A stretch of DNA of 40,558 nucleotides, taken from NCBI GenBank assembly GCA_014859305.1, contig JACUUM010000018.1, forward strand, positions 1-40,558, read 5' to 3'. The stretch comes from Coriobacteriia bacterium. Lineage in GTDB: Bacteria > Actinomycetota > Coriobacteriia > Anaerosomatales > Kmv31. This document shows, in pieces, positions 1,396 through 22,427 of this stretch; position 1 is the first letter of the stretch; every line of letters begins with the position of its first letter. The notes under the pieces were generated by a model. That model saw nothing but the letters and a program-made list of their open reading frames with translations, did not search any database and was not told where the DNA came from. The position numbers and the translations under genes are program-made.

Positions 1396-3588
1396 CTAGT
1401 GGACCGCGCACGCGATGCACGGGTCGAACGACTGGGCGACACGAAGGACCTCGACGCCTGAGATGACGCCGGTGTTGGTGGTGCCTGCTCTCGTCAGCGG
1501 CGCCGTGGAGGCGTCGAACGTGCACGAGATCATGGCCTGCTCCAGCGGACCACGCTTGGTCACGGCCACGTTGTCACCCGCAAGGGCGGAAACCCCATCC
1601 AGGCTATCCCCTCCATCCTTGGGTGAGCCGTTCCACGTCGTGGGCACCACGCACTGGTACGCGCCGACCTTGCCGGCGGTGGCGGTCACGAAGTGGGCGA
1701 GCGCGCCTCGCGGAGCCTCGCTCACTCCCAGGCCCGCGACCGTCGTGGTGGGCGGGGCGTAGACCTTGTACGACCTGAGGTCGGCGCCCGCTTCGCTGGC
1801 CCGATGCGCGTACAGCGCGTCGATCCAGCCGCCGGCACCCATCTCGGCCGAGTAGCCCTTGGCGCGGCCGGTCACGGGATCGATGGTCTTGTCGTAGGCC
1901 CCGAGCATCCACGTGACGATCCAGAACGCCTCGATGGCCCGTCCGCGCAGCCGGTCGATGGTCGACAGGCCGCCCTTCACGCCGAGGAGGTAGCTCTGGA
2001 CGGTGGCGACGAGGCCCTCCTGCGTGAGGGCATGCGCCAGGTCGGCGGAGATCACGGTGAGGTCGAGTCCGCCGCCGCTCGTGTAGAGGTCCGCGTAGGC
2101 CCGAGGAACGGAACCCGGAGCGGCACTCGGATCGATGAGGTTCACGCCCAGCGGGTACTTGCCGTTGACGATCATGCGCGCGAACGGGCCGACCTCGCAG
2201 GGATGGAAGATGTCGTACTTCACCGCATACGTGCCGTTCTCCACCGAGGGGTCGCCCTCCGCAGGGACGGTCCGCGTGAACGTCCAGGCGGAACCGCCGA
2301 GGTACGTGACGGTGTAAGCGGAGTCGGGCACGCCGTCGAGCCGGACGTTGCGTCCGTCCGCGGCGTCGACCGTGACGGTGACCTCCTCGGCGACACCGGA
2401 GAAGACGGCGGATGCCGAGTTGCTGACATCCTTCTCCGCCCAGCGCGGTGCCTTCATCCAGGAGTACTTCTCGGCGTCACTGCGGAGCGGCTCGGTGCGC
2501 GTGACGTCGCCGGGATACGCGTAGTCGGCGCTATCGAAGCCGAACGAGTTCTCGTACCTCGATCGCGCGATCACCTCGACCAGATGGTCCTTGACGGACT
2601 GGATCGCGTCGGCGAGCCCGCTCTTGTTCGCGAGCAGCGGGTAGTCCACGGCCGAACTGGTGCGGGCGTCGATGACGACGCCGCCGGCGATGTCGAGCGA
2701 GCCGTCCTCCTGCGGGAACGCGCCCCACGCGAGGAAGTTGCCGCAGCCGGAGCCGAAGCCGTCGGCGCCGCCGCTGTTGTCGAACGCCGGGTACAGCGCG
2801 CCCAGTGCGAAAGCCAGCGGGACGTACTCCTCGACGATGAAGTTCCCGACCTCGACCATGATGGTCCGGAACTTCTCGCAACGGGCGGCGAAATCGGCGT
2901 CGGAGAAGGAGTTCGTCACGCCTCCGGCGACGAAGTCGGCGGTCATGGGCATGCGGCCCGCGAACAGCGCGCCGGCTTCGAACGTGAGGCGGCGGATGCG
3001 CAGCGCCTTCACGTACTGCGTGATGACGGCCGACCACAGGTCGGCCGAGCCGTTGCCGTCGTTGAACGGCAGGATGCCCCGGACGCCCGCGTTCGTGTTG
3101 TGCGTGGCGCCGTCGACGGTCCCGTGCCCCGAGGAGCGGAGCTGCTCGGCGTACTGGCTGTCGGCGTAGTGCGGCGTCCACGGCGGGATCGGGGGACCCT
3201 GCACGTAGCTCTGCGCCGCAAGATGGTAGAAGTGGGTGATGTGAGACATCAGGAACTCGGCGCCGTAGACCAGGTTGCGTATGTGCAGAGCGCGCGCCGG
3301 TACCCCCTTGCTGCCGTCGTCGAGGAACGTGACGTAGCCGTCGCTCACGTTCAGCACGCTCTCGACGGCGAACGTCGACGCCGTCGCGTGTGGCAAAGGA
3401 CACACGCCGCAGATGCGCTGAGTGAACGTGATCGCGTCGTTGGCCTGGCGCCCGATGAGGAAGTTCTCGAACCCGCGCCACAGGTTGCCGTGGGCGTTCG
3501 CGTCGATGATCGTGCCGCCTGAGACCTCGACCTTGACGCCCAGGTGACCCTCGATACGGGAGATCGGGTCTACCTCGTACTTAGCCAT
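1396..3588 (-). CDS. [NiFe]-hydrogenase large subunit, no C-terminal extension
   Basis: The protein binds the Ni-Fe(CN)2CO centre for H2 activation. The N-terminal ligand motif RICGVC is at residues 58-63 and the C-terminal motif DPCIACAVH at 722-730. At 730 residues it is well longer than usual group 1 large subunits (roughly 560-600). Most of the excess lies between KAPRW (about 379-383) and CEVGPFARM (about 464-472), where a beta-rich, Ig-like stretch of about 75 residues is inserted. The reading frame ends directly after the conserved final His, so the usual C-terminal peptide removed by a maturation endopeptidase is absent. It follows the small subunit by 22 bases and is presumably exported with it through the small subunit's Tat signal. 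Both Ni-binding motifs are Cys-type, so it is not a selenoprotein. Confidence 0.96.
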   Translation of the reverse strand: MAKYEVDPISRIEGHLGVKVEVSGGTIIDANAHGNLWRGFENFLIGRQANDAITFTQRICGVCPLPHATASTFAVESVLNVSDGYVTFLDDGSKGVPARALHIRNLVYGAEFLMSHITHFYHLAAQSYVQGPPIPPWTPHYADSQYAEQLRSSGHGTVDGATHNTNAGVRGILPFNDGNGSADLWSAVITQYVKALRIRRLTFEAGALFAGRMPMTADFVAGGVTNSFSDADFAARCEKFRTIMVEVGNFIVEEYVPLAFALGALYPAFDNSGGADGFGSGCGNFLAWGAFPQEDGSLDIAGGVVIDARTSSAVDYPLLANKSGLADAIQSVKDHLVEVIARSRYENSFGFDSADYAYPGDVTRTEPLRSDAEKYSWMKAPRWAEKDVSNSASAVFSGVAEEVTVTVDAADGRNVRLDGVPDSAYTVTYLGGSAWTFTRTVPAEGDPSVENGTYAVKYDIFHPCEVGPFARMIVNGKYPLGVNLIDPSAAPGSVPRAYADLYTSGGGLDLTVISADLAHALTQEGLVATVQSYLLGVKGGLSTIDRLRGRAIEAFWIVTWMLGAYDKTIDPVTGRAKGYSAEMGAGGWIDALYAHRASEAGADLRSYKVYAPPTTTVAGLGVSEAPRGALAHFVTATAGKVGAYQCVVPTTWNGSPKDGGDSLDGVSALAGDNVAVTKRGPLEQAMISCTFDASTAPLTRAGTTNTGVISGVEVLRVAQSFDPCIACAVH

Positions 3589-3610: not shown

Positions 3611-4876
3611 TTATCGGATGATGTAGGGAACGAATGAGTCCGGATATCCCTTCTCCGTGCAGCCCATGCAGGGATGTCCGGCGGTCAAGCAGTTGGTGCC
3701 GATCCTCTTGCCGGCATCGGTCGGCATCGGCAGCATCGCCGACTCGGCCACCGTGCCCAGCGCGTTACCGGGATGCTGCGAGTTCCAGCCGTGGATGCCG
3801 CAGAGGGAACGTGTCGAGATGCCCTTGCACCCGATGTTCTTCAGACACCCGGGCTGGCCGGGTTTCGTGGCGTAGCGGCGCATGCCGTAGTCGGCGTAGC
3901 GCGGGCAGTACCTGCTGTGCAGCAGGTTCCCGTACACGGCGGACATGCGCTTCTGAGAGTCGCGACCCGTGAGGTCCGGTCCCCCGGACAGCTTCACCAG
4001 CAGGAGCACGGCCGTCAGCACGAACCACCACGGGTTCGAGGGGCAGCCGGACACGTTGAAGACCTTGGCCTCCGCGACGGCCGCCTTCTGCCGGTAGACG
4101 AGGAAATCGTAGACGCCCATGGCGCCGGTCTGGTTCTTGCCGCGCGGCGAAGGAGCCAGCCCGGGACCCTGGCATGCGGGGTATCCGCCGAACGTGGCGC
4201 ACTGGCCCATCGCGATGACGGCCGCGCAGCGGCTGTTGCTGGCCAGCTCCTCGACGACGTAGTCGAAGCTCAGCTCGTGATGCGCGTCCGCCGATCCGTC
4301 GGCGGCGATGGAGCACCAAGGAGCGGCGCCCGACGCGCCCCAGTAGCCCACCTTCTCGACGGGCTGCACGGAGCCTTCCACCACGAGGACGAACGCGCCG
4401 CTCTCGGTGTCGTCGATCTCGTTCATCAGTGACGTGTAGGCGAGATCGCCGCCCATGGCCATGACCGTCTCGTGGTACTGAAGATCGATGAAGTCGATGA
4501 GCACGTCGGCGATGTTCGCCGCGTACGGGTCACCGTCCACGTTCAGTCCCGCCGTCTCCAGCGTGCGGTGACCGAACGGGTGCGTGGGCGACGGACCGAG
4601 GTCTCCCCCCGCGATGATCGACAGCGCCGCTGCGGTGGTGACGCCGCTGCCGGGGACGGCCTCGGCCCGGACGTCTTCGAAGAAGCTCAAGAGAGACGTC
4701 GAGCAGCCCGTGCACTCGGCTCCGTGCACCCACAGGACCTTGGGCTTCTCGGTCCAGCTTGCCGCGCCGACATGCCCGAACGCCTGGGCCACCCGTGCGA
4801 TGTCCATCTGGCTCAGCCCCATGGCGGCCGCCAGGGTGCCCAAGCGCGTTACGAACTGTCGTCTGGTGATTGCCAT
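3611..4876 (-). CDS. [NiFe]-hydrogenase small subunit, Tat-exported
   Basis: The 421-residue electron-transfer subunit carries three FeS clusters. The N-terminus has a twin-arginine signal (TRRQFV, then a hydrophobic segment), placing the enzyme outside the membrane. Proximal-cluster cysteines are visible in ECTGC, GQCATFGG and GCPSNP. The distal region has HSRYC, GCLKNIGCKG and a downstream Cys. The medial region has NCLT and HPCMGC. HSRYC places Cys four residues after His, where the usual spacing is three. The protein ends shortly after the medial motif with no C-terminal membrane helix, unlike small subunits that dock on a cytochrome b. It is the first gene of the operon, with a GGGAGG-type RBS upstream. 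The closest known arrangement is a soluble periplasmic group 1 enzyme feeding c-type haems. Confidence 0.95.
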   Translation of the reverse strand: MAITRRQFVTRLGTLAAAMGLSQMDIARVAQAFGHVGAASWTEKPKVLWVHGAECTGCSTSLLSFFEDVRAEAVPGSGVTTAAALSIIAGGDLGPSPTHPFGHRTLETAGLNVDGDPYAANIADVLIDFIDLQYHETVMAMGGDLAYTSLMNEIDDTESGAFVLVVEGSVQPVEKVGYWGASGAAPWCSIAADGSADAHHELSFDYVVEELASNSRCAAVIAMGQCATFGGYPACQGPGLAPSPRGKNQTGAMGVYDFLVYRQKAAVAEAKVFNVSGCPSNPWWFVLTAVLLLVKLSGGPDLTGRDSQKRMSAVYGNLLHSRYCPRYADYGMRRYATKPGQPGCLKNIGCKGISTRSLCGIHGWNSQHPGNALGTVAESAMLPMPTDAGKRIGTNCLTAGHPCMGCTEKGYPDSFVPYIIR

Positions 4877-5284: not shown

Positions 5285-6772
5285 CTACGCGCTTCGCTCC
5301 TTCGCCTTCCGGCGCTCCAGGTACTCCGCGTGGTCCACCGCGTCCACCTCGAGCAGTCTTGCCACGCGCTGCAGCTCGGCGTCCTCGGTGCCCAGGAGCT
5401 TCGAACGCTGCGCGATGGAGGCGACCAATGCGGCGCGGTACGTGATGCCGAGCTTCTCCTCGAGGGCGCGGGCATCCGACTCGGAGTGCTCCGCCTCCTC
5501 CAGGAGGTCGCCGGCGGCGATCTCACCGTGGCGCAGATGCTTGACCTTCTCGTAGTCTTCCGGAGATGCCAGCCACTTCACCCGGCGGACGACCATCGCC
5601 TCGGCCTCGCCCTTCTCGAAGAGCGCTTCCACGAAGTCGGCCGTCGCCACGTACCGCTTCTTCCTCAGCAGGAGCAGCAGCGGCAGCAGTAGGAGCGGCG
5701 CCAGGCACCAGTACCAGTACTGCGGGACCTTCACCGTCGGGACGGGGGAGATCTCGGCGGGCCAGCCCCACGCCTGGACGCGCTCGTTGACCGTGTCCGA
5801 GATGTAGAGGACGTTCTGCAGCCCGACCGTGACGTCTCCGGGATAGTTGAACAGCCCCTCGGCTATCCCCTGCTGACCGAAGTTGACCAGCAACTCACCC
5901 TTGAGGTTCCAGATGCCGGCGTCGTGCGAGAGAGTGTCCACCAGGACGGCGCGCTCGGCGGTCGTCGCCTCGGAGGAGCGCGTGACGAAGGTCAGGCCGC
6001 GCGGCAGTCCGCTGGTGCTGATCGTCCTGCTGTACCCCAGAGAGGGATCGAAGATCTGGACGCGCCGGTTGTTGCTGTCGACGACCCACACTTCGTCGCC
6101 GCGAACCTTGATGTTGTTCGGGAACTGGAAGAAATAGGGGCTCTCCAGCGGGTTCTTGGCGATGCCGGCGATACCGACGGCCTTCTTGAACTCCCCGTCC
6201 GGCCCGAACATCAAGAGGCGGTGCCCGTTGAGGATCTCCGAGACGTACAGCGTCCCGTCCGGGGCGAAGCCCAGCGCGACGGGAAGCCATTCCACGCCGT
6301 GCGTCTCGAACGGGGGTCTCTGCTCCTCGGGGAGGTTCGGCTTGAACTCGCGCTTGAACTCCCCGTCCTGCCCGAACACGACGACGCTGCGCGTGCCGCG
6401 GTCCGTGATGTAGAGCTCCCCGCTCTCGGGGTGATCGGCGAGGTACAGCGGGGCGCGCAACCGGTCCTCGCCGAACGTGCCCCTGGGCTCTCCCTTGGGG
6501 CCGAAGCGGAAGATGAGACCTTGCTTGGCGTCCGCGACGTACACCGTGTCCCCGACAGCCAACACGCCCACGGGCCTCTTCAGCTTCGGCTCGCCCTCTC
6601 CGCCGAAGGAGAACAGGTAGGTCGGCGGGTCGACCGCGTCGCGGGTCGTCTGGATGAAGTCGAACTTGAGGCTCTTGGTCTCCCGGAAGTTCACGTACCA
6701 CAGGGCGACGAACGCCAGAAGGAGTGCGAGCAGCGTGATGAGGATGATCTTGCGCCTGCGACGACGCGTCAC
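5285..6772 (-). CDS. Membrane-anchored NHL-repeat beta-propeller protein
   Basis: The 495-residue protein starts with an arginine cluster and one membrane helix (about 9-27). Next comes an NHL-type beta-propeller (about 45-340) with repeated motifs such as DTVYVADAKQGLIFRF, GELYITDRG and VLYISDTVNERVQAW. A second hydrophobic segment, WYWCLAPLLLLPLLLLL (about 350-366), leads to a charged C-terminal tail of about 125 residues. The propeller should face the periplasm or outer surface and the tail the cytoplasm. It is the last gene of the cytochrome operon and overlaps the TPR gene (GTGA). NHL propellers are usually binding scaffolds, so I infer a structural or docking role for the multihaem cytochromes. 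No catalytic residues were recognised. Confidence 0.85.
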   Translation of the reverse strand: MTRRRRRKIILITLLALLLAFVALWYVNFRETKSLKFDFIQTTRDAVDPPTYLFSFGGEGEPKLKRPVGVLAVGDTVYVADAKQGLIFRFGPKGEPRGTFGEDRLRAPLYLADHPESGELYITDRGTRSVVVFGQDGEFKREFKPNLPEEQRPPFETHGVEWLPVALGFAPDGTLYVSEILNGHRLLMFGPDGEFKKAVGIAGIAKNPLESPYFFQFPNNIKVRGDEVWVVDSNNRRVQIFDPSLGYSRTISTSGLPRGLTFVTRSSEATTAERAVLVDTLSHDAGIWNLKGELLVNFGQQGIAEGLFNYPGDVTVGLQNVLYISDTVNERVQAWGWPAEISPVPTVKVPQYWYWCLAPLLLLPLLLLLRKKRYVATADFVEALFEKGEAEAMVVRRVKWLASPEDYEKVKHLRHGEIAAGDLLEEAEHSESDARALEEKLGITYRAALVASIAQRSKLLGTEDAELQRVARLLEVDAVDHAEYLERRKAKERSA

Positions 6773-7848
6773 TTGGAACCGCCCTTCCCGTCCGACGCCA
6801 GGCGCTCCACGGCGCTCTGAGCGGTCTCGTCACCCGGCCGCAGGTTGGCGGCCTCCCTGTAGAGCCCCAGGGCCTGTTCGGCTTCACCGATCCGCTCTCG
6901 GGCCTGGGCGTGCACGAGCACGGCGTCGTACTCCGCCGGCGCGAGCGCGGCGGCGATCCGCGCCGGGGCGAGCGCCTCCTCGGGGTTCCCGGCGTCGAGA
7001 GCCTGCCGCGCCTCCTCGTGGTAGCTGCGCCAGTCACCGAAGGCCGCCAGCTCCTGCACCGCCAGCTCGGCGTCGGGTTGACCGTCGAGAGCCACGCGGA
7101 AGTACTCCGCCGCGGCGGCCTTGTCGGAGTCAAGGAGCAGGCGCCCCACCTCGTAGTTGGCCTCCGGGAACTTGGGGTCGAAGGCGAGCGCGGCCTCCAG
7201 CGTGTTCAGCGCCGCGTCGCGCTCCTCCAGTCCCAGGTAGGCCTGGGCCATCCGCAGGTAGGTGTCGGAGGCGGAGCGCCTGATCCGGAGGGCGGCCTTG
7301 AAGTAGCCGAGCGCCTCCTCGTACTCGCGCTCCTGCAGCGCGAGCTCGCCGAGGTGGAAGTACGCCTCTTCGCGGCGCTTGTTGATGCCCTCGTACTCAC
7401 CGCCCGCGGTGACTTCGAGCACCTTGTTCAGCGCCCCCTTGGCCGTCTCGTAGTCCTTCTCGATGAAGGCTATCTTGGCGATCGCCATGTACGCGCCCGA
7501 GTAGTCCGGATCCAGGTCGATCGCCGCGCGGAGCTCGCGCTTGGCCTCCTTGAACCGCCCGACCGCGCCGTACGCCTCGGCGAGGAGACCCCGTGCCTGG
7601 GGATCGTTCGGGTTCTCGCGGACCGCCTGCTTGAGGTCCTCCAGCACCCTGTAGGCGGGGTTGGCCGCCCTCTGGGCTGCCCGGGTGGCCTTCACCTCGT
7701 ACGCGAAGTAGGCGGCCAACGCCAGCACCGACACGACCAGTGCGGCGAGGACGACGTTCAAGACCAGGTCCGATCGCTCGCCCCGGGGACGCAGCGGAGA
7801 AGGGGTCTCGATCCGCTCGTCCGCGGAGCCGGTCGGTACCTCGGTCAT
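6769..7848 (-). CDS. Membrane-anchored TPR protein
   Basis: The 359-residue protein has a short polar N-terminus and one membrane helix (about 28-48). The remainder is built of tetratricopeptide-type helical repeats, for example from ARGLLAEAYGAVGRFKEAKR and from AYFHLGELALQEREYEEA. TPR domains mediate protein-protein contacts, and similar proteins act as assembly factors in cytochrome c biogenesis. It sits between the 20-haem cytochrome and the NHL protein, so assembly or tethering of the cytochrome complex is a reasonable inference. The 130 bases upstream contain a CGGCTC/GAGCCG hairpin but no convincing promoter. Confidence 0.85.
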   Translation of the reverse strand: MTEVPTGSADERIETPSPLRPRGERSDLVLNVVLAALVVSVLALAAYFAYEVKATRAAQRAANPAYRVLEDLKQAVRENPNDPQARGLLAEAYGAVGRFKEAKRELRAAIDLDPDYSGAYMAIAKIAFIEKDYETAKGALNKVLEVTAGGEYEGINKRREEAYFHLGELALQEREYEEALGYFKAALRIRRSASDTYLRMAQAYLGLEERDAALNTLEAALAFDPKFPEANYEVGRLLLDSDKAAAAEYFRVALDGQPDAELAVQELAAFGDWRSYHEEARQALDAGNPEEALAPARIAAALAPAEYDAVLVHAQARERIGEAEQALGLYREAANLRPGDETAQSAVERLASDGKGGSK

Positions 7849-7978
7849 CGGGCCCCCCTAAGGTGCGCTCGGGTTCGGCACGTCGGCGCGGCTCGCCTCC
7901 CGACCCCGAGCCGGCGAGACGGCGCAGCCGGGCGAGGATCGGACGGTACGGGGTCAGCAATCGGCGAGCCAGGACCTG

Positions 7979-9583
7979 TCAGATGTTCAAGTCGGTATGG
8001 CACCGGCGGCACAGCTCCGCACCCCTGTACGGGGCTATCAGGACGTTCTTGTAGTCGAGGGTGCCGTGACAGTCGTAGCACAACCTCAGGTCGTGCGCAG
8101 CATCCCTGAGGGAGGCCGAGTGGACGCCGTTGCCGTTGCCGTTCGTGCCGAACCCCACGTGGCACTCGTAGCACTTGTACGGCTTGCCCTTGACCTCCTC
8201 GACCTTGAAGTGGACCGCGTGCTCGGCGAAGCCCTTGTGCTTGATCGAGGTGGCCGGCCTCTTCTTCATCTCCTCGTGACACGGCACGCAGTTCTTCTCG
8301 ATGAGCTCGGCGCGTTTCACCGTGTCGTGGTGGCAGCTCTGGCACTTCTCGCGGTCGGTGTGACACACGTTGCAGTCGCCCTCGAGCTCGTCCTTGTTCT
8401 CGGCGTGACCCCTCACCCAGTCCGCGGGATGCGGCATGACGGTGACGTGACACGACTTGCACGACGGGGAGTCGTGGCACGACGCGCACGAGCCCTTCTG
8501 TGTGAGGAACAGACCGCCGTGCTTCGACATCCACTCCGCCTTCCGGTGGTCGGCGGGGATGACCTTTCGCGAGCGCTCGCCGTCGGGGCCGACCTTCCGG
8601 CCCATGTGGCACTCGACGCAGAAGTCCGGCTGGTGGCACATCGCGCAGTAGGCACCTTCGGCGTCGGCCCGCTTGCCGTGCGCCCCCTCTTCGAACTTAG
8701 ACGTGTGGTCCGAGGGCTTGAGCTCGAAGTCCTTGGGATGGCATGCGCCGCACTCCTCGGTGGCCACGAGACCGGAAGCGGCGTGCGTCAGGCCGTGACA
8801 GCGGTAGCACGACAGCATGTCGGGGCGACGCGCTCCGTCGATGTCGTGCCCGAACTTGGGATGGCACACCGTGCACTGGTAGTTGCGCCGGATGTGCTCC
8901 GCGTGCTCGAAGATGACGGTGCCGGGCACGAAGTCGTCGATGTCCGGGTGGCAGTAGATGCACTGGCCCATGCTGGTCGGCTGGTCCGGGTAGACCTTGA
9001 TGGAGGGCCGCTCGAGCTTGGGGGCCAGCACCGTCTCGTACCCCTTGGGCATCTGCCCCACGTCGACCTTCTCGGCCTTATGGCACGCGTCGCAGTCCTC
9101 GGGCCCGTCGTGGCACAACATGCAGGCGTTGACCCCGAGCTTGCCGCGTTCGGCGTGCGGCCCGCCCGCCCAGTCCTTCACGTGGCTCCTCGGGCGGAGC
9201 TTGAACGAGGGCGTGTGGCAGTCCCTGCACTCCGAGGTGGCCAGCTCGCCCTGCGGACCGTGCTGGATGCCGTGGCAGTTGAAACAGCTCTCCATCGGCG
9301 GCGAGTACGTCTTGCCGTCCTCGTGCGCCGCGCGGTAGTGGCACGCCGAGCAACTCACCAGCAAGTGGTTGCCGTGCTCGAAGACGAGCCCCGGCTTGCG
9401 CGCCGTGGCGATGCGGGCGTGGCATGGCGCGCAGTTCGACGCCTCCACCTGGGCGGTGAGGTCGATGGGGTCCTTCGTCTGGCCGGCGCTGGTCGCTCCG
9501 CCGAACGCGAAGGCGGCGGCCATCACGATGATGACCGCCACCCCCCATATCTTCCGTCTCGTCGTGTTCCGTCTCGGGGTCAC
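7979..9583 (-). CDS. 20-haem c-type cytochrome
   Basis: The 534-residue secreted protein has an N-terminal Arg/Lys cluster and hydrophobic signal segment. I count 20 CXXCH motifs, from CAPCH near the N-terminus to CRRCH ten residues from the C-terminus, or about one haem per 27 residues. The arrangement is repetitive: pairs such as CMLCH/CDACH and CAMCH/CVECH recur with HGPQGELAT- and ASGLVAT-type linkers, suggesting growth by internal duplication. It shares those linkers with the 13-haem gene upstream. It starts at GTG behind a GGTGAGG RBS. A chain of this length could act as an electron wire out through the cell wall; the terminal acceptor is unknown. Confidence 0.93.
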   Translation of the reverse strand: MTPRRNTTRRKIWGVAVIIVMAAAFAFGGATSAGQTKDPIDLTAQVEASNCAPCHARIATARKPGLVFEHGNHLLVSCSACHYRAAHEDGKTYSPPMESCFNCHGIQHGPQGELATSECRDCHTPSFKLRPRSHVKDWAGGPHAERGKLGVNACMLCHDGPEDCDACHKAEKVDVGQMPKGYETVLAPKLERPSIKVYPDQPTSMGQCIYCHPDIDDFVPGTVIFEHAEHIRRNYQCTVCHPKFGHDIDGARRPDMLSCYRCHGLTHAASGLVATEECGACHPKDFELKPSDHTSKFEEGAHGKRADAEGAYCAMCHQPDFCVECHMGRKVGPDGERSRKVIPADHRKAEWMSKHGGLFLTQKGSCASCHDSPSCKSCHVTVMPHPADWVRGHAENKDELEGDCNVCHTDREKCQSCHHDTVKRAELIEKNCVPCHEEMKKRPATSIKHKGFAEHAVHFKVEEVKGKPYKCYECHVGFGTNGNGNGVHSASLRDAAHDLRLCYDCHGTLDYKNVLIAPYRGAELCRRCHTDLNI

Positions 9584-9640
9584 GACCTCACCTAACCGGC
9601 TGCGCCTCCGTCCCGCGGCGGGGTCACCGCGGGAGGCGGG

Positions 9641-10897
9641 TCACAGCCACGACTTGATCCGGTCTATCGCCTGCTGCAGGGCGTTCGTCTTGCGCGCCTC
9701 CACCTTCTGGTGGATCAGGCTCTTGGCGCCCTCGACGAACGACTCGCCCGAGCCCTTGTGGCAGCCCTCGCGACCGCCGACCCCGCCGCAGGTGGCCACC
9801 AGCTGACCCTCGTTGGTCAGCGAGTTCGGGTCGCTCGTGGGCAGGACCTCGTGCGCGCCGTGGCAGTCCCAGCACGACGGGGCGTCCCTGTTGCCCCTCT
9901 TGTACGCCGCGCCGTGGTAGTAGTCGTCGTAGCTGTCCCACTGAGCGCGGTGGCAGCGCGCGCAGATCCTGTACGCGGCGCCGTGCAACTCGTCCTTGGC
10001 GGCCTGCGTGTCGAGGCGCCGGATGTAGTGGCCGCCGTGGCAGCTCGAACAGGTCGCCGACCCCATGTCCCCGGCCATCAGCTTCTGGCCGTGAACGGAC
10101 TGCTGGTAGAGATCCTTCTGCTCCGCATGGTCATGGCAGCCCTGGCACGCCAGTCCCGCGTTGACCGCCCACAGCTTGGTCGAGTCCGTGCGCTCCTCGT
10201 AACGGAAGTCCGGGTGGCACTCGATGCAGCTCCTGTCGCGGTGCGCGGATTGGTCGACACCGGTCACCTGGAAGGACTTCGGCTGGCCTCCGACCGTCTT
10301 GGACAGCCCCTCCTCGGCGTGGCACGCCATGCATCCGGCCTGGGGGTCATACACGTAGGGCTTGTCCGGCTTCCACCGGATGCCCTCGGACGCGTGGCAG
10401 TCGTCGCAGTGCTTGTCGTCGTGACACATCATGCAGCGCGTCTGGAGCTCCTGGTTGCTGGGAGCCACGTGGGGCTTGCCGGACCAGTCGAACGTGTGGA
10501 ACGACGGCCGGAGCCGCTGCTTGGGTGTGACGTGGCAGTCCTCGCACTTCCCGGTCGCCAGCTCGCCCATCGGCCCGTGCTGCAGACCGTGGCAGTTGAA
10601 GCACATCTTCATCGTGGGCCGCTCGGTGCCCTCCGGACGATGAGGGAACTGTCCGTGACAGCTGCTGCACTGCACGAGGATGTGCAGACCGTGCCCGAAG
10701 ATGATCTCGTTGCTGTAGTTCTTGGTCTCGGAGATGTTGGCGTGGCACATGTCGCACTTGGCCCACTCCACCTGACCGCTCGTGTCGATCACAACCGCCG
10801 AAGCGGGCGTGGCCGCCGCCAGCAGCGCCGCCAGCGCGAGCGCCGCCAGCGAGACGGAGACGAGCCGTGCCGTCCGCCCCCCCATCGAAGCTGCCAT
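9641..10897 (-). CDS. 13-haem c-type cytochrome with one CX8CH site
   Basis: The 418-residue secreted protein has a signal peptide that probably ends near ASA at 32-34. Twelve canonical CXXCH motifs run from CDMCH to CWDCH. A thirteenth candidate reads CGGVGGREGCH, with eight residues between the cysteines. The paralogous site in the neighbouring 7-haem protein is the normal CGKCH, so the site looks like a haem motif with an internal insertion. The N-terminal half parallels the 20-haem protein (FNCHGLQHGPMGELATG) and the C-terminal third parallels the 7-haem protein (WDSYDDYYHGAAYKRG, CWDCHGAH). The gene lies 40 bases after the 7-haem gene, with an AGGAAGGGG RBS. Electron transfer in the same conduit is inferred. 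Confidence 0.93.
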   Translation of the reverse strand: MAASMGGRTARLVSVSLAALALAALLAAATPASAVVIDTSGQVEWAKCDMCHANISETKNYSNEIIFGHGLHILVQCSSCHGQFPHRPEGTERPTMKMCFNCHGLQHGPMGELATGKCEDCHVTPKQRLRPSFHTFDWSGKPHVAPSNQELQTRCMMCHDDKHCDDCHASEGIRWKPDKPYVYDPQAGCMACHAEEGLSKTVGGQPKSFQVTGVDQSAHRDRSCIECHPDFRYEERTDSTKLWAVNAGLACQGCHDHAEQKDLYQQSVHGQKLMAGDMGSATCSSCHGGHYIRRLDTQAAKDELHGAAYRICARCHRAQWDSYDDYYHGAAYKRGNRDAPSCWDCHGAHEVLPTSDPNSLTNEGQLVATCGGVGGREGCHKGSGESFVEGAKSLIHQKVEARKTNALQQAIDRIKSWL

Positions 10898-10937
10898 CGT
10901 CCCTAACCCCTTCCTCCTCGGCCGGAAGACCGACCCG

Positions 10938-11822
10938 TTACACGAACAGCGCCTTCAGCGACCCGAACAGGCCCGTGACAGCCTCGCGCGTCTGCCGAAG
11001 GAACGAGTACACCGGGTTGCTCGCCAGCACTTCGCCCTTGCGATGCACGAGCCCGGCGTAGGACACGTACTCGGCGTTCACTCCGTCATGGCACTTCCCG
11101 CACGTCTCCTCCAGATTGGACTCGTTGGTCATGGACCGGCGGTCGGCCGAGGGCTGGATGTCGTGCGCGCCGTGGCAGTCCCAGCACGCGGGCGCGTCCG
11201 GGGCGCCCCTGCGGTACGCCGCGCCGTGGTAGTAGTCCGCGTAGTTGTCCCACTCCTCGGGGTGGCACCGTCCGCACACCTCCCAGCCGTGCCGGTGGAG
11301 CGACGCGCGGCCCGCGGGGTTGTCCGTGAGCGGCTCGATGGCGTGCGCACCGTGGCAGTCTCCACATAGAGGTTTCTCCGGAGCGGCCGGGTCCACCTGC
11401 TCGCCGGGCCGGACGGTCATGCTGTGGACACCCGTGCCGAAACTCTGGAACTGCTCGTCGTGGCAGTTCTTGCAGGCCAGTTTCGCCGTCGCCCGCCAGT
11501 CGGTCTGCTTGATGTTGTGGGGTGCCTTGAAGGCGAAGTCGATGTGGCAGCCGGTGCACATGATCGTCACGTGCGCCGAGGCGTCGAGCATCTCGGGGTC
11601 CACCCAGTACGTGAGGAACCGGCCCTCCTTCAAGCGGATCAGGTTCTCGTCGGCGTGACACACCATGCAGCCCGACTTGCCGGCGGTGGGCAGGGTGAAG
11701 TTCATGTCGTAGTCCTGCGCCGAGGCGACCGCCGGCGCCGCGAGCACGGCCGCCGCGAGCACGAGCAGCCGAGCCGCGGAGCGCGCCGCCGTCCCCGGCA
11801 CTATGGGTCGTGCGAGGCCCAC
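10938..11822 (-). CDS. 7-haem c-type cytochrome
   Basis: The 294-residue secreted protein has a signal peptide ending near VASA. It has seven CXXCH motifs: CMVCH, CTGCH, CKNCH, CGDCH, CGRCH, CWDCH and CGKCH. Non-motif histidines such as those in HNIKQ, HGAH and YYHGAAY could be distal ligands. A GTG start follows AGGAGG. It comes directly after the cytochrome b gene, so it is the most likely first acceptor of electrons from the quinol-oxidising subunit. Its C-terminal portion is homologous by eye to the end of the 13-haem protein. Confidence 0.92.
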   Translation of the reverse strand: MGLARPIVPGTAARSAARLLVLAAAVLAAPAVASAQDYDMNFTLPTAGKSGCMVCHADENLIRLKEGRFLTYWVDPEMLDASAHVTIMCTGCHIDFAFKAPHNIKQTDWRATAKLACKNCHDEQFQSFGTGVHSMTVRPGEQVDPAAPEKPLCGDCHGAHAIEPLTDNPAGRASLHRHGWEVCGRCHPEEWDNYADYYHGAAYRRGAPDAPACWDCHGAHDIQPSADRRSMTNESNLEETCGKCHDGVNAEYVSYAGLVHRKGEVLASNPVYSFLRQTREAVTGLFGSLKALFV

Positions 11823-11852
11823 TGGCCCTCCTAAGCGCCGCTTCCCGCGGCG

Positions 11853-12698
11853 CTACTCGACCTTGCTCATCGCCGGTTCGGCCACGTGCCCTTCCTCGGG
11901 CTCGTGCTCGTGCCCGGCATGCTCCTTGTCCAGGAAGCTCAGCCCGAAGAAGTTCAGGAACGCGGGGAAGTCCTCGGTGACCGAGAGGTAGACGTGGATC
12001 GTCGTGAGGATGATGAAGAGCCAGTTCACGACGTAGTGGGTGATGCGCATGTACCAGCCGGCGAGGTCCGTGCTGCCCACCAGTGCCCCGAGCCACCAGC
12101 CGACCAGCAGGTCTCGCGGCGAATAGCCGACGATGAACTTCTGGGTCAGCAGCGCGAAACCGGTGAAGGCCTGGAGGATCAGCAGCGGCGCGAAGATCGT
12201 GTAGGTCGCCTTCTGCATGACGTTGTACTTGCCGAGGTGCGGCTTGGAGGGCTTCACGAAGATGTAGTACAGGATGACCTTCGGGGCGGTGATGATGTCA
12301 CGCCTGGTTATCGCGAACTCCCGGTAGTCGCGCTGCCGGGAGGAGAACGCGTACCACAGGCGCCACACCAGGTTGACCGTCACGACGACCATGGCGACGT
12401 AGTGCAGGTACCGCATGGTCGTGCGGCCGCCGGTGAAGAACGGGAACCGGATGTAGAGGCCGGTGACCGCCAGCACGATCATCGAGCCGACGTGCTGGAA
12501 GTGCAGGAACTTCGGCAGGAACGGGATCGGCGGGCCCTCGTGGTGCGGCCACTCCCAGCCTCCGAAGCGGCGCTTGGCGCGCCCGGTGATGATGTTCCCG
12601 AGGAAATGCCCGGCGAGCCCTGCCAGGACGACCGCGTAGAGGGTCGTGAAGATCACGTCGAGCCATACGTTGAGTTCTGTGAGGACTATCGCCGACAC
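11853..12698 (-). CDS. Cytochrome b-type membrane subunit, quinol to c-haem relay
   Basis: The 281-residue protein has about five hydrophobic segments (roughly 12-32, 68-88, 96-116, 164-186, 220-242). Conserved-looking histidines at 69, 99, 221 and 235 lie within or at the ends of helices, as in the di-haem cytochrome b family of [NiFe]-hydrogenases and formate dehydrogenases. A His/Glu-rich tail (about 260-275) is unusual. It is the first gene of the six-gene operon, so it probably oxidises menaquinol and feeds the 7-haem cytochrome. The GTG start has a weak GGGG-type RBS, so the start is not firm. Confidence 0.85.
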   Translation of the reverse strand: MSAIVLTELNVWLDVIFTTLYAVVLAGLAGHFLGNIITGRAKRRFGGWEWPHHEGPPIPFLPKFLHFQHVGSMIVLAVTGLYIRFPFFTGGRTTMRYLHYVAMVVVTVNLVWRLWYAFSSRQRDYREFAITRRDIITAPKVILYYIFVKPSKPHLGKYNVMQKATYTIFAPLLILQAFTGFALLTQKFIVGYSPRDLLVGWWLGALVGSTDLAGWYMRITHYVVNWLFIILTTIHVYLSVTEDFPAFLNFFGLSFLDKEHAGHEHEPEEGHVAEPAMSKVE

Positions 12699-12955: not shown

Positions 12956-13198
12956 TCAGGCCCAATCCTCGAAACTGACGCTTGCCGACGGGCGTATCCC
13001 GCCGGACTTCATGACGCGCTCCGCTGCAGGAGCGTCCCCGGGCGCCACCCGCAGGGCGATGCCGCACAGCGCGCCGAGCGAGGCGGGCGTGGGGATGGGC
13101 ACGACCGGGATGCCGGCGGCCTTCAGACGCTCCTCGGCCGCTATGGCGTCGTGCGTGCTCTCGAAGCCGAACGCCGCGAACTCGCTCCGCTCGCTCAT
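12956..13198 (-). CDS. DUF3343 (putative Se/S carrier-like) protein
   Basis: This 80-residue protein has the DUF3343 layout: FGFESTHDAIAAEERLKAAGI near the start, IPTPASLGALCGIALRV in the middle with the single conserved Cys at about position 45, and an amphipathic C-terminus. The family is annotated as putative Se/S carrier-like and often accompanies selenium genes or cysteine desulfurases. Its ATG overlaps the stop of the desulfurase-like gene (ATGA), so the two are translationally coupled. I infer that it accepts a persulfide or selenosulfide from that enzyme through its Cys. The function of the family has not been proven. Confidence 0.82.
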   Translation of the reverse strand: MSERSEFAAFGFESTHDAIAAEERLKAAGIPVVPIPTPASLGALCGIALRVAPGDAPAAERVMKSGGIRPSASVSFEDWA

Positions 13199-14379
13199 CG
13201 GGTGAGCTCCGAGAGGGCCTCCAGGGCGAGGTCGACGTGCGCCTCCGTGTTGCCCCAGCCCAGTCCGAACCGCAGCGCGCCGGTCGCGAGCGTGCCGAGG
13301 GTCTCGTGGGCCCACGGCGAGCAGTGCAGGCCCGCGCGCGTGGCTATCCCGTACCGCCTGTCGAGCGCGAAGGCGAGCTGGTCGGCGTCTACGCGCTCGT
13401 GCGTCACCGCGAGCACCGGGACGCGAGGCTCGTCGGGGCCGGGACCGAGCACGCGGAAGCCGCCGATGCCCAGCAGCCCCTCGTGCAGGCGGCGCAGCAG
13501 GCGGCGCTCCTCGGCGCGCTGGGCCTCGCCGCGCTCCGCGAGCAGCCGCGCCGCCGCGCCGAGGCCCGCGATGCCGGGCGTGTTGGGCGTGCCGGCCTCG
13601 TAGCGCTCGGGGCGCACCAGCGGCTGGACCGGCTCCTCGGAGCGGCCGGCGCCGGTGCCGCCCTGCAGCAGCTCCTCGGCGTCCACGTGCGGCGCGAGGT
13701 AGAGCGCGCCGATGCCCTGCGGGCCGAGCAGGCCCTTGTGACCCGAGACCGCGTAGGCGTCCGCTCCCAGAGCGGCCACGTCGACGGGCAGGTGACCGGC
13801 GGCCTGCGCGCCGTCGACGAACATGAGCGCGCCGGCGGCGTGCGCCACGTCGGCGAGATCGCCGACCGGCTGGATGCTCCCGGTGAGGTTGGACGCGTGC
13901 GTGCACGCGACCGCTCGCGTGGGCGCGGCGCGCACGGCGGCCTCGACGGCGTCGGCATCCACGGTCCCGTCGGTCTCGGCGGTGACCACCACCACCTCGA
14001 CGCCGGCGGAGGTCAGGCGGTTCAGCGGCCGGGAGACGGCGTTGTGCTCCATGGAGGTCGTCACGACCCGGTCACCGCGGTGCAGGACGCCCTTGAGCAT
14101 CAGGTTCGCCGCCTCCGTGGCGCCGGAGGTGAACAGCAGGTCGCGCGGGTCCGGCACGTGCAGGAGGGCGGCGAGGTCGCGACGCGCCTCGAAGATCAGG
14201 CGCGACGACGCCATCGCCAGGCGGTAGGCGCCGCGCCCCGGGTTGCCGCCATAACGGGTGAGCGCTGAGACGACGGCCTCGACGACCTCGGGCGGCTTGG
14301 GCCAGGACGACGCGGCGTGGTCGAGGTAGACGGTGGTCGCCGCCACGTCGCGAACATCATCGGAGGAGGGGTGCGGCAC
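13195..14379 (-). CDS. Cysteine desulfurase-like class V aminotransferase
   Basis: This is a PLP enzyme of the NifS/SufS/selenocysteine-lyase fold. The N-terminus has YLDHAASS, the pyridoxal lysine lies in SGHKGLLGPQG, and near the C-terminus GLHCSPWAHETLGT supplies the active-site Cys followed by a conserved phosphate-binding loop. The start is uncertain: GTG at 14379 gives 394 residues just after the mogA stop, and GTG at 14346 gives 383 residues, closer to the family length. Placement between mogA and the DUF3343 gene suggests it supplies sulfur for molybdopterin or FdhD-dependent sulfuration, or selenium for SelD. The sequence cannot separate these. Confidence 0.88.
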   Translation of the reverse strand: MPHPSSDDVRDVAATTVYLDHAASSWPKPPEVVEAVVSALTRYGGNPGRGAYRLAMASSRLIFEARRDLAALLHVPDPRDLLFTSGATEAANLMLKGVLHRGDRVVTTSMEHNAVSRPLNRLTSAGVEVVVVTAETDGTVDADAVEAAVRAAPTRAVACTHASNLTGSIQPVGDLADVAHAAGALMFVDGAQAAGHLPVDVAALGADAYAVSGHKGLLGPQGIGALYLAPHVDAEELLQGGTGAGRSEEPVQPLVRPERYEAGTPNTPGIAGLGAAARLLAERGEAQRAEERRLLRRLHEGLLGIGGFRVLGPGPDEPRVPVLAVTHERVDADQLAFALDRRYGIATRAGLHCSPWAHETLGTLATGALRFGLGWGNTEAHVDLALEALSELTR

Positions 14380-14381
14380 CG

Positions 14382-14867
14382 CTACGCGTGCCCCCCTCCG
14401 CGCATCATCTCGACCGCGTGCTCCAGCTGGTCCGCCACCACCGCGAACGTCTCGCGGGCGGCCTTCTCGCTGCCCGGCAGGTTGACGATGAGCGCGTCCC
14501 CCCTCATCGCGGCGACGCCGCGGGAGAGCATCGCGCGGGCGGTGACCTTCATCGACTCGGCGCGGATCGCCTCGGCGACGCCGGGGACGATCCGGTCGGC
14601 CACGGAGACGGTGGCTTCGGGCGTCACGTCCCGAGGACCGAGCCCCGTGCCGCCCGTGGTCAGCACGACGTCGGCGCCGTCCGCATCGCACATCTCGATG
14701 AGCGAGGCGGACAGGCACTCCTCGTCGTCGGGGCACACGTGGTAGTCCACCACCGTCCACCCGCGCTCCTCGCACAGCGCCACGAGCGCCTTGCCGGAGG
14801 TGTCCTCGGCCTCGCCCGCCGCCCGGCTGTCCGAGCTGGTGAGCACGGCCACCTTGAGCTCCGTCAC
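14382..14867 (-). CDS. mogA: Molybdopterin adenylyltransferase (MogA/MoaB family)
   Basis: The 161-residue protein activates molybdopterin by adenylation before metal insertion by MoeA. The family signature TTGGTGLGPRDVTPEA is intact, as are NLPGSEKAARE and the N-terminal VLTSSDSRAAGEAEDTSG. It uses a GTG start. In the ten-gene Moco operon it stands next to a MOSC-domain gene, an arrangement common in anaerobes. Confidence 0.93.
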   Translation of the reverse strand: MTELKVAVLTSSDSRAAGEAEDTSGKALVALCEERGWTVVDYHVCPDDEECLSASLIEMCDADGADVVLTTGGTGLGPRDVTPEATVSVADRIVPGVAEAIRAESMKVTARAMLSRGVAAMRGDALIVNLPGSEKAARETFAVVADQLEHAVEMMRGGGHA

Positions 14868-14892
14868 CGGCCCCTCCTCTCCCCCTGCATCA

Positions 14893-15399
14893 TCAGAGCG
14901 GCTCCGCCCGCGCGTCGGCCGGCACGCGGTCGCACGCGCCGTCGCCCAGCGACAGCACGCGGACCTCGTCCCCGACGCTGACCGGTCCGGCCACGCGGAC
15001 GACCGCGAAGATGCCCTCCTTGGGCATCACGCAGTCCCCGGCCTGGTAGAAGATCGCGCACTTGGTGTGGCAGACCTTGCCGATCTGAGAGACCTCCAGC
15101 TCTACTTCAGGTCCTATCTTCACGCGCGTCCCGACCGGCAGTGACAGCAGGTCGATCCCGCGCGTGGTGATGTTCTCGGCGAAGTCCCCGGGCCCCACGT
15201 CGAGCCCGGCGGCGCGCATCTTGTCGATGGACTCGAGCGCGAGCAGGCTCACCTGCCGGTGCCAGTCACCGGCGTGCGCGTCGCCGACGAATCCGCGATC
15301 GAGCTCCAGCTCGCCCGCCTTGCCGGGCGTCTTGCGCACCGTCTTGCGCTCGGACACGTTGACCGAGACGACCTCGGCGGCCCCGTTCTGGGCGGTCAT
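14893..15399 (-). CDS. MOSC-domain protein
   Basis: The 168-residue stand-alone MOSC domain has the family hallmarks: an N-terminal beta segment, RGFVGDAHAG, FAENITTRGIDL, and the Cys-bearing HTKCAIFYQAGDC. MOSC domains carry or transfer sulfur on a conserved Cys and occur in Moco sulfurases. Sitting between mogA and moaC, it probably modifies or delivers the cofactor. The desulfurase-like enzyme two genes downstream is a possible sulfur donor. Confidence 0.9.
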   Translation of the reverse strand: MTAQNGAAEVVSVNVSERKTVRKTPGKAGELELDRGFVGDAHAGDWHRQVSLLALESIDKMRAAGLDVGPGDFAENITTRGIDLLSLPVGTRVKIGPEVELEVSQIGKVCHTKCAIFYQAGDCVMPKEGIFAVVRVAGPVSVGDEVRVLSLGDGACDRVPADARAEPL

Positions 15400-15408
15400 C
15401 GCGACACC

Positions 15409-15894
15409 TCACTCCTCCCGGGCCCAGCGGCCCGTCTTGCCGCCCTCTTTCAGCAAGAGGGCGGTCTCCTCGATCGTCATGCCGCGATCCACGGCCTTGC
15501 ACATGTCGTACAGGGTGAGCGCCGCGACCGAAGCGCCCGTGAGCGCCTCCATCTCCACGCCGGTCCTGCCGTCGGTCTCCACCGTGGCGGTGACCTCGAA
15601 GCCGGCGGGCAGCGGCTCGATCGCCACGCTCGCGTGCGTGAGGGGGAGCGGGTGGCACAGCGGGATGAGCTCGCTCGTGCGCTTCGCGGCCATGATGCCC
15701 GCCACGCGCGCCACCGCGATCACGTCTCCCTTGGGCGCGCGGCCCTCGGCCACCATCTCGACGGTCTCGGGTCGGCACCGCAGGCGCGATCGCGCCACCG
15801 CGCGGCGCCGGCTGACGGCCTTGGCGCCCACGTCGACCATGCGCGCGGCTCCGCGCGCGTCCACGTGCGTAAGGGCGGCGTCCTCCTCGGGCAT
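15409..15894 (-). CDS. moaC: Cyclic pyranopterin monophosphate synthase
   Basis: The 161-residue protein works with MoaA to convert GTP to cyclic pyranopterin monophosphate. The N-terminal [17 protein letters not shown], the central [18 protein letters not shown] and [21 protein letters not shown], and the C-terminal [19 protein letters not shown] match the MoaC family throughout. It follows moaA with one base between stop and start. Confidence 0.95.
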
Positions 15895-15895
15895 C

Positions 15896-16966
15896 TCAGC
15901 CTCCTATCTGGTACATGCGGCGGGCGGTGCCCACCCGCATGCCGTGGGTGGCGGGCTTGGCGGCCAGCGCGGCGCGGATGAGCGCCCGGACGTCCTCGTC
16001 CGAGGCGCCGGAGCGCATCAGGACGCGCACGTCGAGCTCGTCGTCGGAGAACAGACAGGGGCGCAGCCGGCCGTCGGCGGTCAGCCGCAGGCGGTTGCAC
16101 TCGCCGCAGAAGTGGTGCGACAGCGGCGAGATCACGCCGAGGGTGCCCACCGCGCCGTCGAAGCGGTAGTAGCGCGCAGGTCCCCAGCCGCCGGGCGCCG
16201 AGGAGCGCCCGAGCGCGCGAAGCTCCCCGAGGCCGGCCGCGGCGCCCTGCGCGGCGAGCGAGGCGAGGATCTCGGCCGAGGGCACGTGGTCCGCCTCGCT
16301 CCAGGCGCCGGCGCCGGCGGCGATGCCGTGCGCGGCGCCTGCCTCCGACGCCGAGGTCGCCGAGCCGCCGCAGCCGCTCGTCTCGGCGGCGCCGATCGGC
16401 ATGTACTCGATGAAGCGCACGTGCACGGGGCGATCCAGCGTGAGCCGCGCGAAGGCGAGGAGGTCCTGCTCCAGCGAGCGGGCGACCACCACGTTCACCT
16501 TGACGGGGTCGAAGCCGACGTCGAAGGCCGCGTCGATGCCCGCGAGCGCGTCGGCGAGCCTGCCGCCGCGCGTCACGCGCTCGTAGACCTCGGCGTCCAG
16601 CGAGTCCAGCGAGACGTTCACGCGCCTGAGGCCGGCCTCGGCGAGCCCGGCCGCGTAGCGGGGTAGCAGGATCCCGTTGGTGGTCAGCGCGATCGACTCG
16701 ATGCCGGTCGTGGCGAGGAGGCGGCGGACGTGACCGACCACGCCGTGGCGCACGAGCGGCTCGCCGCCGGTGAGGCGGATCTTGGAGATCCCCTCCTCGA
16801 CCGCCACACGCGCGAACCGCTCGACCTCCTCCAGCGTGAGGATCTCCTCGTGCGGCTTCCAGGGGACGCCCTCGTCGGGCATGCAGTACAGGCAGCGCAG
16901 GTTGCAGCGGTCGGTGAGCGAGACCCGCAGGTAGTCGATACGCCGTCCGAACGCGTCGGTCGCCAT
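15896..16966 (-). CDS. moaA: GTP 3',8-cyclase (radical SAM)
   Basis: The 356-residue protein catalyses the first step of molybdopterin synthesis. The SAM [4Fe-4S] motif CNLRCLYC is at residues 22-29, followed by the conserved TGGEPL. The C-terminal substrate cluster is formed by [18 protein letters not shown]. An Ala/Gly/Ser-rich, probably disordered stretch of about 30 residues (about 200-235) is inserted before the C-terminal domain, making it longer than typical (about 330). The start overlaps the mobB stop (ATGA). The usual C-terminal GG is present. Confidence 0.96.
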
Positions 16967-17550
16967 CAGCGCCCTTCCCTGCCGGGGCCGCCGGCGGGCA
17001 GGAAGCGCTCCTCGATCAGGTCCGCGAGCGCCTCGGCCTCCCCGAACCCGAAGACGGGCACGCCCGCCGGGCGCAGTCCGGGGTTGTCGGTCACCAGCGC
17101 GAAGAGCTCCTCGGGCGCGCAGATCAGCTCGTCGGAGCGCCCGTGCCGCGAGACCTCGATGCGCGTGTGGCCGGCGCGGCGGAAACCTTCGGTGACGAGC
17201 AGGTCGACGTCCCCGGCGGCCTCAGCGAGCTCGTCCAGCGTGCGCTCCCGCTCCACGCGCCTGATCAAACCGAACTTGTCCGGCGCGCTGATCATGGTGA
17301 CGTGAGCGCCCGCCCGCGCATGGCGCCAGGAGTCCTTGCCGGGGACGTCGATGTCGAAGTCGTGCACGTGGTGCTTGACCGCCGCGACGCGCCAGCCGCG
17401 CCGCGAGAGCGCGCCGATGAGGCGCTCCATCACCGTCGTCTTGCCCGAGTCGCTCTTGCCCACGACCGAGACGACGGGCAGCGCGACGGCGCAGGCCTCG
17501 TCGCGCTCTCCACCCGCCCGCTCGCCCCGCATGCCCGTCCGCTCGCTCAC
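16966..17550 (-). CDS. mobB: MobB-type molybdopterin-guanine dinucleotide accessory protein
   Basis: The 194-residue P-loop GTPase has a Walker A (GKSDSGKTT), KHHVHDFDIDVPGKDSWRHARAGA and a Walker B region in VDLLVTEGFRR, all characteristic of MobB. It uses a GTG start; an internal ATG six codons later is possible. It lies 19 bases after the small CELGCF protein. MobB helps attach GMP to the cofactor, which fits a bis-MGD enzyme such as formate dehydrogenase as the end user. Confidence 0.9.
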   Translation of the reverse strand: MSERTGMRGERAGGERDEACAVALPVVSVVGKSDSGKTTVMERLIGALSRRGWRVAAVKHHVHDFDIDVPGKDSWRHARAGAHVTMISAPDKFGLIRRVERERTLDELAEAAGDVDLLVTEGFRRAGHTRIEVSRHGRSDELICAPEELFALVTDNPGLRPAGVPVFGFGEAEALADLIEERFLPAGGPGREGR

Positions 17551-17569
17551 GCGCTTCCTTCCGCGGCCG

Positions 17570-17788
17570 CTAGAAGCAGCCCAGCTCGCAGTTCTTCACG
17601 CGCACGCCGGCCTCGTCGGCCGCCGCGCCGGCCACCGCGTAGGGCACCGATCGCTCCTCGGCCAGCCTGCGAAGGACGGGGCAGGTGATCCGCCCGTCGG
17701 TCGCGCGCTCGCGAACCGCCTCGACCAGTCCCGGGCTGACCTGCGCCACGATGCCCGCCGGCCTCTCCTTGGGTGCTCCGCCGCTCAT
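17570..17788 (-). CDS. Small Cys-containing Moco-operon protein of unknown function
   Basis: This 72-residue protein begins MSGGAPKERPAG. The middle looks like a short helix-turn-helix (LVEAVRERATDGRITCPVLRRLAEERSV, broken here by family-like spacing), and the end is VRVKNCELGCF. It has three cysteines: one in ITCP and two in NCELGC. From memory, similar 60-80 residue proteins with a C-terminal CxLGCF occur beside molybdopterin genes in other anaerobes, but I know no assigned function. The ATG overlaps the moeA stop (ATGA), so translation is coupled. A metal- or sulfur-binding helper is a guess. Confidence 0.75.
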   Translation of the reverse strand: MSGGAPKERPAGIVAQVSPGLVEAVRERATDGRITCPVLRRLAEERSVPYAVAGAAADEAGVRVKNCELGCF

Positions 17789-19026: not shown

Positions 19027-19031
19027 CGGCC

Positions 19032-21690: not shown

Positions 21691-21695
21691 CGGCC

Positions 21696-22412: not shown

Positions 22413-22427
22413 GTGCGCGCCGACCTC

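Follow-up and report, generated by a model that had tools for sequence, protein, structure and literature searches.

A nine-gene locus of the Anaerosomatales that may join exported hydrogenase or formate dehydrogenase to a multihaem cytochrome chain

The window examined here is a 40,558-nucleotide stretch covering positions 1-40558 of contig C18 (JACUUM010000018.1) from a Coriobacteriia bacterium genome (GCA_014859305.1; 2.13 Mb, 98% complete) whose relatives are Anaerosomatales/OPB41 metagenome-assembled genomes (MAGs). On its minus strand it carries six genes (12698-5285) for a cytochrome b, three multihaem c-type cytochromes, a TPR protein, and an NHL-repeat protein. We propose that these six form the electron-transfer half of a unit of nine genes (12698-101, minus strand), the rest of which encodes an exported [NiFe] hydrogenase and a 6-haem cytochrome. 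On balance, this unit probably oxidizes H2 outside the membrane and delivers the electrons into the multihaem chain, with a link to menaquinone and an outward exit. In many relatives the hydrogenase position is occupied by formate dehydrogenase (FDH), and the TPR and NHL proteins appear to travel with the donor enzyme.

Six genes conserved as a unit

An initial annotation, prepared from the sequence without database searches, described the six open reading frames (ORFs), their order, and their protein families, all of which were confirmed; the ORFs are real and closely packed. The cytochrome b (11853-12698; 281 amino acids [aa]) belongs to PF01292 (Pfam E 5.7e-17), is 53-80% identical across the order, and has invariant histidines at H66, H69, H99, H221, and H235. 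Next come the 7-haem cytochrome mhc7 (10938-11822; 294 aa; seven CxxCH motifs; aligned in 12 loci), the nominally 13-haem cytochrome mhc13 (9641-10897; 418 aa; 12 CxxCH and one CX8CH), and the 20-haem cytochrome mhc20 (7979-9583; 534 aa; 20 CxxCH), which begins with an N-terminal hydrophobic segment. The TPR protein (6769-7848; 359 aa) matches Pfam TPR families and has one N-terminal hydrophobic segment. The NHL protein (5285-6772; 495 aa; PF01436, E 2.2e-13) has two such segments by hydropathy, one at its N terminus (residues 5-30) and the other (351-369) preceding a C-terminal domain.

The three cytochromes contain 7, 12, and 20 CxxCH motifs, making 39 canonical haem sites where 40 c-type haems had been predicted. 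The fortieth is the thirteenth site of mhc13 (9758-9790, minus strand), which reads CX8CH (CGGVGGREGCH) in the window, mostly CX4CH in relatives, and CxxCH in some; judged from these residues, the window copy may have lost its haem or may attach it in a non-standard way. In mhc20, all 20 sites are invariant among 19 aligned proteins, and its 42 histidines are sufficient for bis-His ligation of each haem. The linker noted earlier as shared between cytochromes (YxDYYHGAAYxxGxxDAPxCWDCHGxH) is real and is common to mhc7 and mhc13, and all three proteins score as c7/c3-like families. PDB sequence searches were uninformative for both the cytochrome b and the 20-haem protein, and a tblastn search of plasmids found no relatives.

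A scan of genome contigs for the six-gene order, a check proposed with the initial annotation, revealed a conserved unit. The census comprises 45 loci, with all matches in Actinomycetota: 21 show the full six-gene order, and these are all the untruncated loci of this type; 10 run off a contig end, three are five-gene versions without the 13-haem gene, and 11 are orphan cytochrome b paralogues. The TPR and NHL genes are conserved neighbors across loci, as had been expected. Within the order, for which checks of cytochrome b, Omp85, NHL, and MqnC covered 21 Anaerosomatales genomes, a cytochrome b search matched every genome when orphan paralogues and hydrogenase-type cytochromes b are counted. 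Other Actinomycetota families carry the order cytb-mhc7-mhcN-TPR-NHL, where mhcN has 14 to 22 haems. A 20-haem profile found matches at E <= 1e-20 in 32 of 396 sampled genomes of the phylum, and in ten of these 32 the E value was under 1e-80.

Three loci (L125, L129, and L130), which we call type B, read Csd-mhc7-mhc20-TPR-NHL-FDH-6-haem and lack both cytochrome b and the 13-haem gene. Because these keep the rest of the set, the constant core as judged from gene content comprises mhc7 and one long cytochrome together with TPR, NHL, and a donor enzyme, and cytochrome b is the candidate quinone link in most loci but not in all.

An exported donor enzyme follows the NHL gene

The locus runs past the six genes and beyond the coordinates given in the initial annotation. 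Three further genes on the same strand lie downstream of the NHL gene and reach position 101. The hydrogenase small subunit gene hydS (3611-4876; PF01058, PF14720) specifies a Tat-type signal with a TRRQF start and, by hydropathy, no C-terminal membrane helix. It is followed by the large subunit (1396-3588; 730 aa; PF00374, E 2.8e-71; RICGVC and DPCIACAVH) and an exported 6-haem cytochrome (101-1372; six CxxCH) that has a signal-like start (MKKAALVLA) and a doubled CXXCH domain. In its subunit families, active-site motifs, and Tat export, the enzyme fits Group 1 [NiFe] uptake hydrogenases, with scores below the NCBIfam cut-offs. No hydrogenase-specific cytochrome b adjoins it. A second hydrogenase, on contig C58 of the same genome, has its own PF01292 cytochrome b.

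Across the census, the slot after NHL holds FDH in about 17 loci and hydrogenase in about 8, and L086 and L088 have both. Homologues of both hydrogenase subunits and the 6-haem cytochrome occur in L014, L098, L106, L112/L086, and L088; at L016/L054 and L113 both subunits are present and the stretch ends in the large subunit. The FDH alpha subunit is Tat-exported and is read through a TGA at the selenocysteine position of FdnG (QARI-U-HSSTVAGL), scoring E 1e-118 with TIGR01553, which is under the equivalog cut-off. Several FDH loci continue with an iron-sulfur (FeS) beta subunit and a similar 6-haem cytochrome, and the window genome has such an arrangement on contig C46 (TPR-NHL-FDH-(FeS beta)-6-haem). 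Overall, a donor enzyme lies no more than 4 kb downstream of 21 of the 31 NHL genes of this family in the 21 genomes. Most of the remaining NHL genes are at contig edges, where L134 shows the start of hydS. Since the locus includes an exported hydrogenase or FDH together with a 6-haem cytochrome, electrons can in principle enter from outside the membrane. An obligate link between cassette and hydrogenase was considered and rejected, given that there are cassettes without hydrogenase and that in genome G009 the contig bearing the hydrogenase has no cassette genes.

The TPR and NHL proteins follow the donor enzyme

In a tree of 43 NHL proteins, the Anaerosomatales sequences form two clades, both supported at 100/99: 13 rows belong with hydrogenase and 21 with FDH. 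FDH-bearing six-gene cassettes sit in the FDH clade. NHL proteins without neighboring cytochromes also group by donor, with L099 and L100 among the hydrogenase-associated proteins and L123 among those associated with FDH. Outside the order, donor labels are mixed. A 20-haem tree was used to ask if TPR-NHL moves independently of the cytochromes when donors are exchanged. It shows four donor-label changes, in contrast to the clean NHL split within the order, and of these only G009/L124 is a firm exchange; the label of L018 rests on joined contigs and the L132 row is a long branch. Because the NHL clades follow donor type even where no cytochromes are adjacent, we conclude from these trees and neighborhoods that the TPR-NHL pair travels with the donor enzyme. 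The two proteins had been described as membrane-anchored scaffolds for the cytochromes. Their hydrophobic segments agree with the anchoring, but proteins that track the donor without adjacent cytochromes would not be merely cytochrome scaffolds.

Residues 370-495 of the NHL protein, its C-terminal domain (5288-5665, minus strand), gave an AlphaFold2 (AF2) model with a predicted local distance difference test score (pLDDT) of 94 and a predicted TM-score (pTM) of 0.87. The top PDB fold matches of this model are PIN domains, including those of protein-only RNase P, PAE2754, Nob1, and VapC4 (E from 2.5e-4; query-normalized TM about 0.5-0.7). A Pfam search of the C terminus gave no match, and the PIN likeness comes from fold comparison only. 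The acidic positions are mostly kept and not invariant (D10 in 17 of 21 sequences, D95 in 15, and D111 in 18). The domain is predicted to be cytosolic.

Electron path and competing explanations

We infer the electron route and its direction, the formation of a complex, the roles of the TPR and NHL proteins, and the external acceptor as follows. The exported hydrogenase would oxidize H2 (or FDH would oxidize formate) outside the cytoplasmic membrane. Because the hydrogenase has no adjacent membrane cytochrome b of its own, it would hand electrons to the 6-haem cytochrome, and from there they would pass to the membrane-tethered 20-, 13-, and 7-haem cytochromes. Depending on potential, cytochrome b would join this chain to menaquinone either by passing H2-derived electrons to the quinone or by releasing menaquinol electrons outward, and the long cytochromes would conduct electrons across the cell wall and on to an acceptor outside. 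The TPR and NHL-PIN proteins would be membrane proteins specific to one type of donor and would dock the exported dehydrogenase onto the chain or assemble it there, with the PIN-like domain extending into the cytosol. We advance more tentatively, as an idea that may well not hold, that these loci of monoderm Actinomycetota make up a modular platform for respiration that has not been described before, in which one multihaem chain serves exchangeable exported donors through dedicated TPR/NHL-PIN pairs, and in which the PIN domain couples the outer machine to the cell interior.

The physiology of cultured members is consistent with the donor side of this scheme. The order's isolates are Gram-positive, and their use of H2 or formate as electron donors (PMC9686372) matches the two donor-enzyme types at the locus. 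Parvivirga is an Fe(III) reducer, and Anaerosoma reduces sulfur or thiosulfate (PMC9686372). For the quinone step, MqnC of the futalosine route scores above its cut-off in 17 of the 21 order genomes, including that of the window, and contig C39 of the window genome (G000) groups MqnC with an MqnE-like gene and a gene of the MqnA/D family. G010 has MenD in place of MqnC. Of the three relatives with neither, two (G011 and G014) also have no cassette.

Several observations weigh against a nine-gene pathway from H2 through menaquinone. The third relative with neither MqnC nor MenD recognized, G018, does have a cassette with cytochrome b, and neither of the order's two isolates yielded detectable respiratory quinones (PMC9686372); this last result weakens, and does not exclude, the menaquinone step. 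The NHL and hydS genes are separated by a gap of 408 bp, in which no terminator-like site was found on the minus strand. Several cassette genomes have no hydrogenase, and at least three loci (L015, L103, and L133) have no adjacent donor enzyme. In addition, the AF2 model of the 20-haem cytochrome has a pLDDT of 45, which speaks against reading a wire geometry from it.

Among the alternatives, the one that survives best, with perhaps a quarter of the weight, gives the TPR and NHL-PIN proteins a part in the maturation or quality control of the exported metalloenzyme or of apocytochromes. They would then stand outside the working complex, comparable to the TPR domain of CcmI/NrfG, and the six genes would be an operon for an assembly machinery plus its product. 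The TPR protein does have a single N-terminal helix anchor and weak matches to the CcmH/CycH and NrfG TPR models, the pair tracks donor enzyme type, and a PIN-like fold in the cytosol hints at a function that goes beyond electron transfer. However, TPR-model matches are generic, the locus has no cytochrome-maturation gene, and an NHL propeller is atypical of known maturation factors.

Somewhat less likely is the function first proposed for the six genes, a stand-alone wire from menaquinol to the exterior that runs from cytochrome b through the 7-, 13-, and 20-haem cytochromes, with TPR and NHL as cytochrome scaffolds and the hydrogenase as an unrelated neighbor. The pairing of cytochrome b with a 7-haem cytochrome resembles Geobacter CbcBA, which passes on electrons from menaquinol, and the three donorless cassettes would suit such a wire. 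So would the cell envelope: as anticipated for a cell without a typical outer membrane, no porin-like ORF was found within the locus, which sets it apart from the porin-cytochrome (Mtr/Pcc) outer-membrane systems, and Omp85 was not found in any of the 21 Anaerosomatales genomes in searches whose controls were positive. In its pure form, however, this proposal is not supported. Most loci place a donor after TPR-NHL, drawn from two unrelated enzyme types and followed by a 6-haem cytochrome in the window and elsewhere; the NHL clades match that donor type; and type B loci drop the very cytochrome b from which the wire would start.

The least probable alternative is electron input, in which the cytochromes would draw electrons from outside, be it from a mineral, an electrode, or a partner cell, and deliver them to menaquinone as well as to hydrogenase or FDH, making H2 or formate, a reaction that is energetically uphill from menaquinol-level electrons. 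Its parts are reversible in principle, an exported dehydrogenase could serve as acceptor, and a reversed CbcBA has been proposed for a syntrophic sulfate reducer (PMC10553843), but the isolates consume H2 and formate and showed no growth on either when an acceptor was missing (PMC9686372).

Comparison with known systems

The initial annotation did not recognize this exact set as a described system, but the kind is not entirely unfamiliar: there are published relatives in architecture in Geobacter, Dethiobacter, and Parvivirga. Geobacter Cbc5, a menaquinol:cytochrome c oxidoreductase (cbcEDCBA), consists of CbcB (PF01292), CbcA (7 haems), CbcC/OmcQ (12 haems), CbcD (2 haems with HAMP), and CbcE (PMC7726332, PMC7894505, PMC11434368). 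As in Cbc5/CbcBA, a PF01292 cytochrome b gene adjoins a 7-haem cytochrome gene, and the 12 haems of CbcC resemble, by count, the 12 CxxCH and one variant site of mhc13. Unlike in Cbc5, no CbcD- or CbcE-type ORF occurs between 12698 and 101, whereas Cbc5 lacks the 20-haem cytochrome, the TPR and NHL-PIN proteins, the exported hydrogenase or FDH, and the Gram-positive-type host. By this analogy, Cbc5/CbcBA, which is characterized by menaquinol oxidation near -0.2 V, would be the nearest functional model, and the locus may be likened to Cbc5/CbcBA plus a donor module; the likeness is architectural, and we do not file the locus as a member.

Clusters of Dethiobacter alkaliphilus are described as bringing multihaem cytochromes together with NHL- and TPR-repeat proteins (PMC10376724). 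In contrast to the present locus, no cytochrome b of the PF01292 kind and no adjacent donor hydrogenase or FDH is reported for them, and the quinol step is given to CymA-like cytochromes (PMC10376724). Parvivirga hydrogeniphila, of the same order, has a cluster of multihaem cytochromes and a molybdopterin oxidoreductase (MCL4079376-90), with FDH genes inside it (MCL4079382-3; PMC9686372). Judged from these gene numbers, it is probably the FDH form of the locus; the paper describes no six-gene order, NHL or TPR proteins, or hydrogenase form (PMC9686372). In Desulfovibrio, exported dehydrogenases likewise feed multihaem cytochromes and then a membrane quinone complex (periplasmic hydrogenase/FDH-cytochrome c3-Qrc/Nhc/Hmc; PMC8076601 and general knowledge). 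Qrc, Nhc, and Hmc use NrfD-like subunits, whereas the locus has a PF01292 cytochrome b and no FeS subunit among the six genes, and, unlike the Desulfovibrio network, it unites the dehydrogenase and cytochromes in one place.

Relative to known quinone-linked multihaem chains, the new elements would be the swappable exported donor enzyme and the donor-specific TPR/NHL-PIN pair. NHL and TPR proteins recur in Gram-positive multihaem clusters, where a putative role in assembly or scaffolding has so far been ascribed to them; in this locus they track the dehydrogenase. Long-range electron transfer in cells without an outer membrane is poorly known, and the locus supplies a conserved parts list. The host order consists mostly of uncultured subsurface bacteria, and the locus ties the chain to H2 and formate, the donors used by its cultured members.

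Flanking genes and other observations

A single sigma-70-like promoter site precedes the cassette (TTGACA-17-TATCCT; 12878-12850, minus strand), in agreement with the initial annotation. It is a consensus match only, at 10 of 12 positions with 0.2 expected by chance. Upstream on the minus strand lie genes for a cysteine desulfurase and for molybdenum cofactor synthesis (MoaB-like, MoaA, MobB, and MoeA; 13195-20295), of which MoaA, MobB, and MoeA were identified by Pfam and the desulfurase and MoaB by inspection. This operon lies directly upstream of the cassette in many relatives, including L103 from another Actinomycetota family. Farther upstream, an ABC transporter ATPase with a TOBE domain and a solute-binding protein (20527-23294) are probably of the molybdate/tungstate type. 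The window also carries a tRNA-Sec gene (36247-36343), and the TGA-containing FDH gene is on C46 of the same genome.

The hydrogenase large subunit is unusually long at 730 aa and stops right at DPCIACAVH (1396-1420, minus strand), leaving no C-terminal extension and no maturation peptide to cleave. The orphan cytochrome b gene, a close paralogue with 45-64% identity, is conserved at L009 (on contig C19 of the window genome, G000:C19), L063-L069, and L083-L085; it was considered as a second cassette and rejected, there being no haem genes nearby. Several long multihaem cytochromes occur with TPR proteins in differing arrangements at L132 (G018:C56), L114, L115, and L116, the last of which is a lone 21-haem gene in G012.

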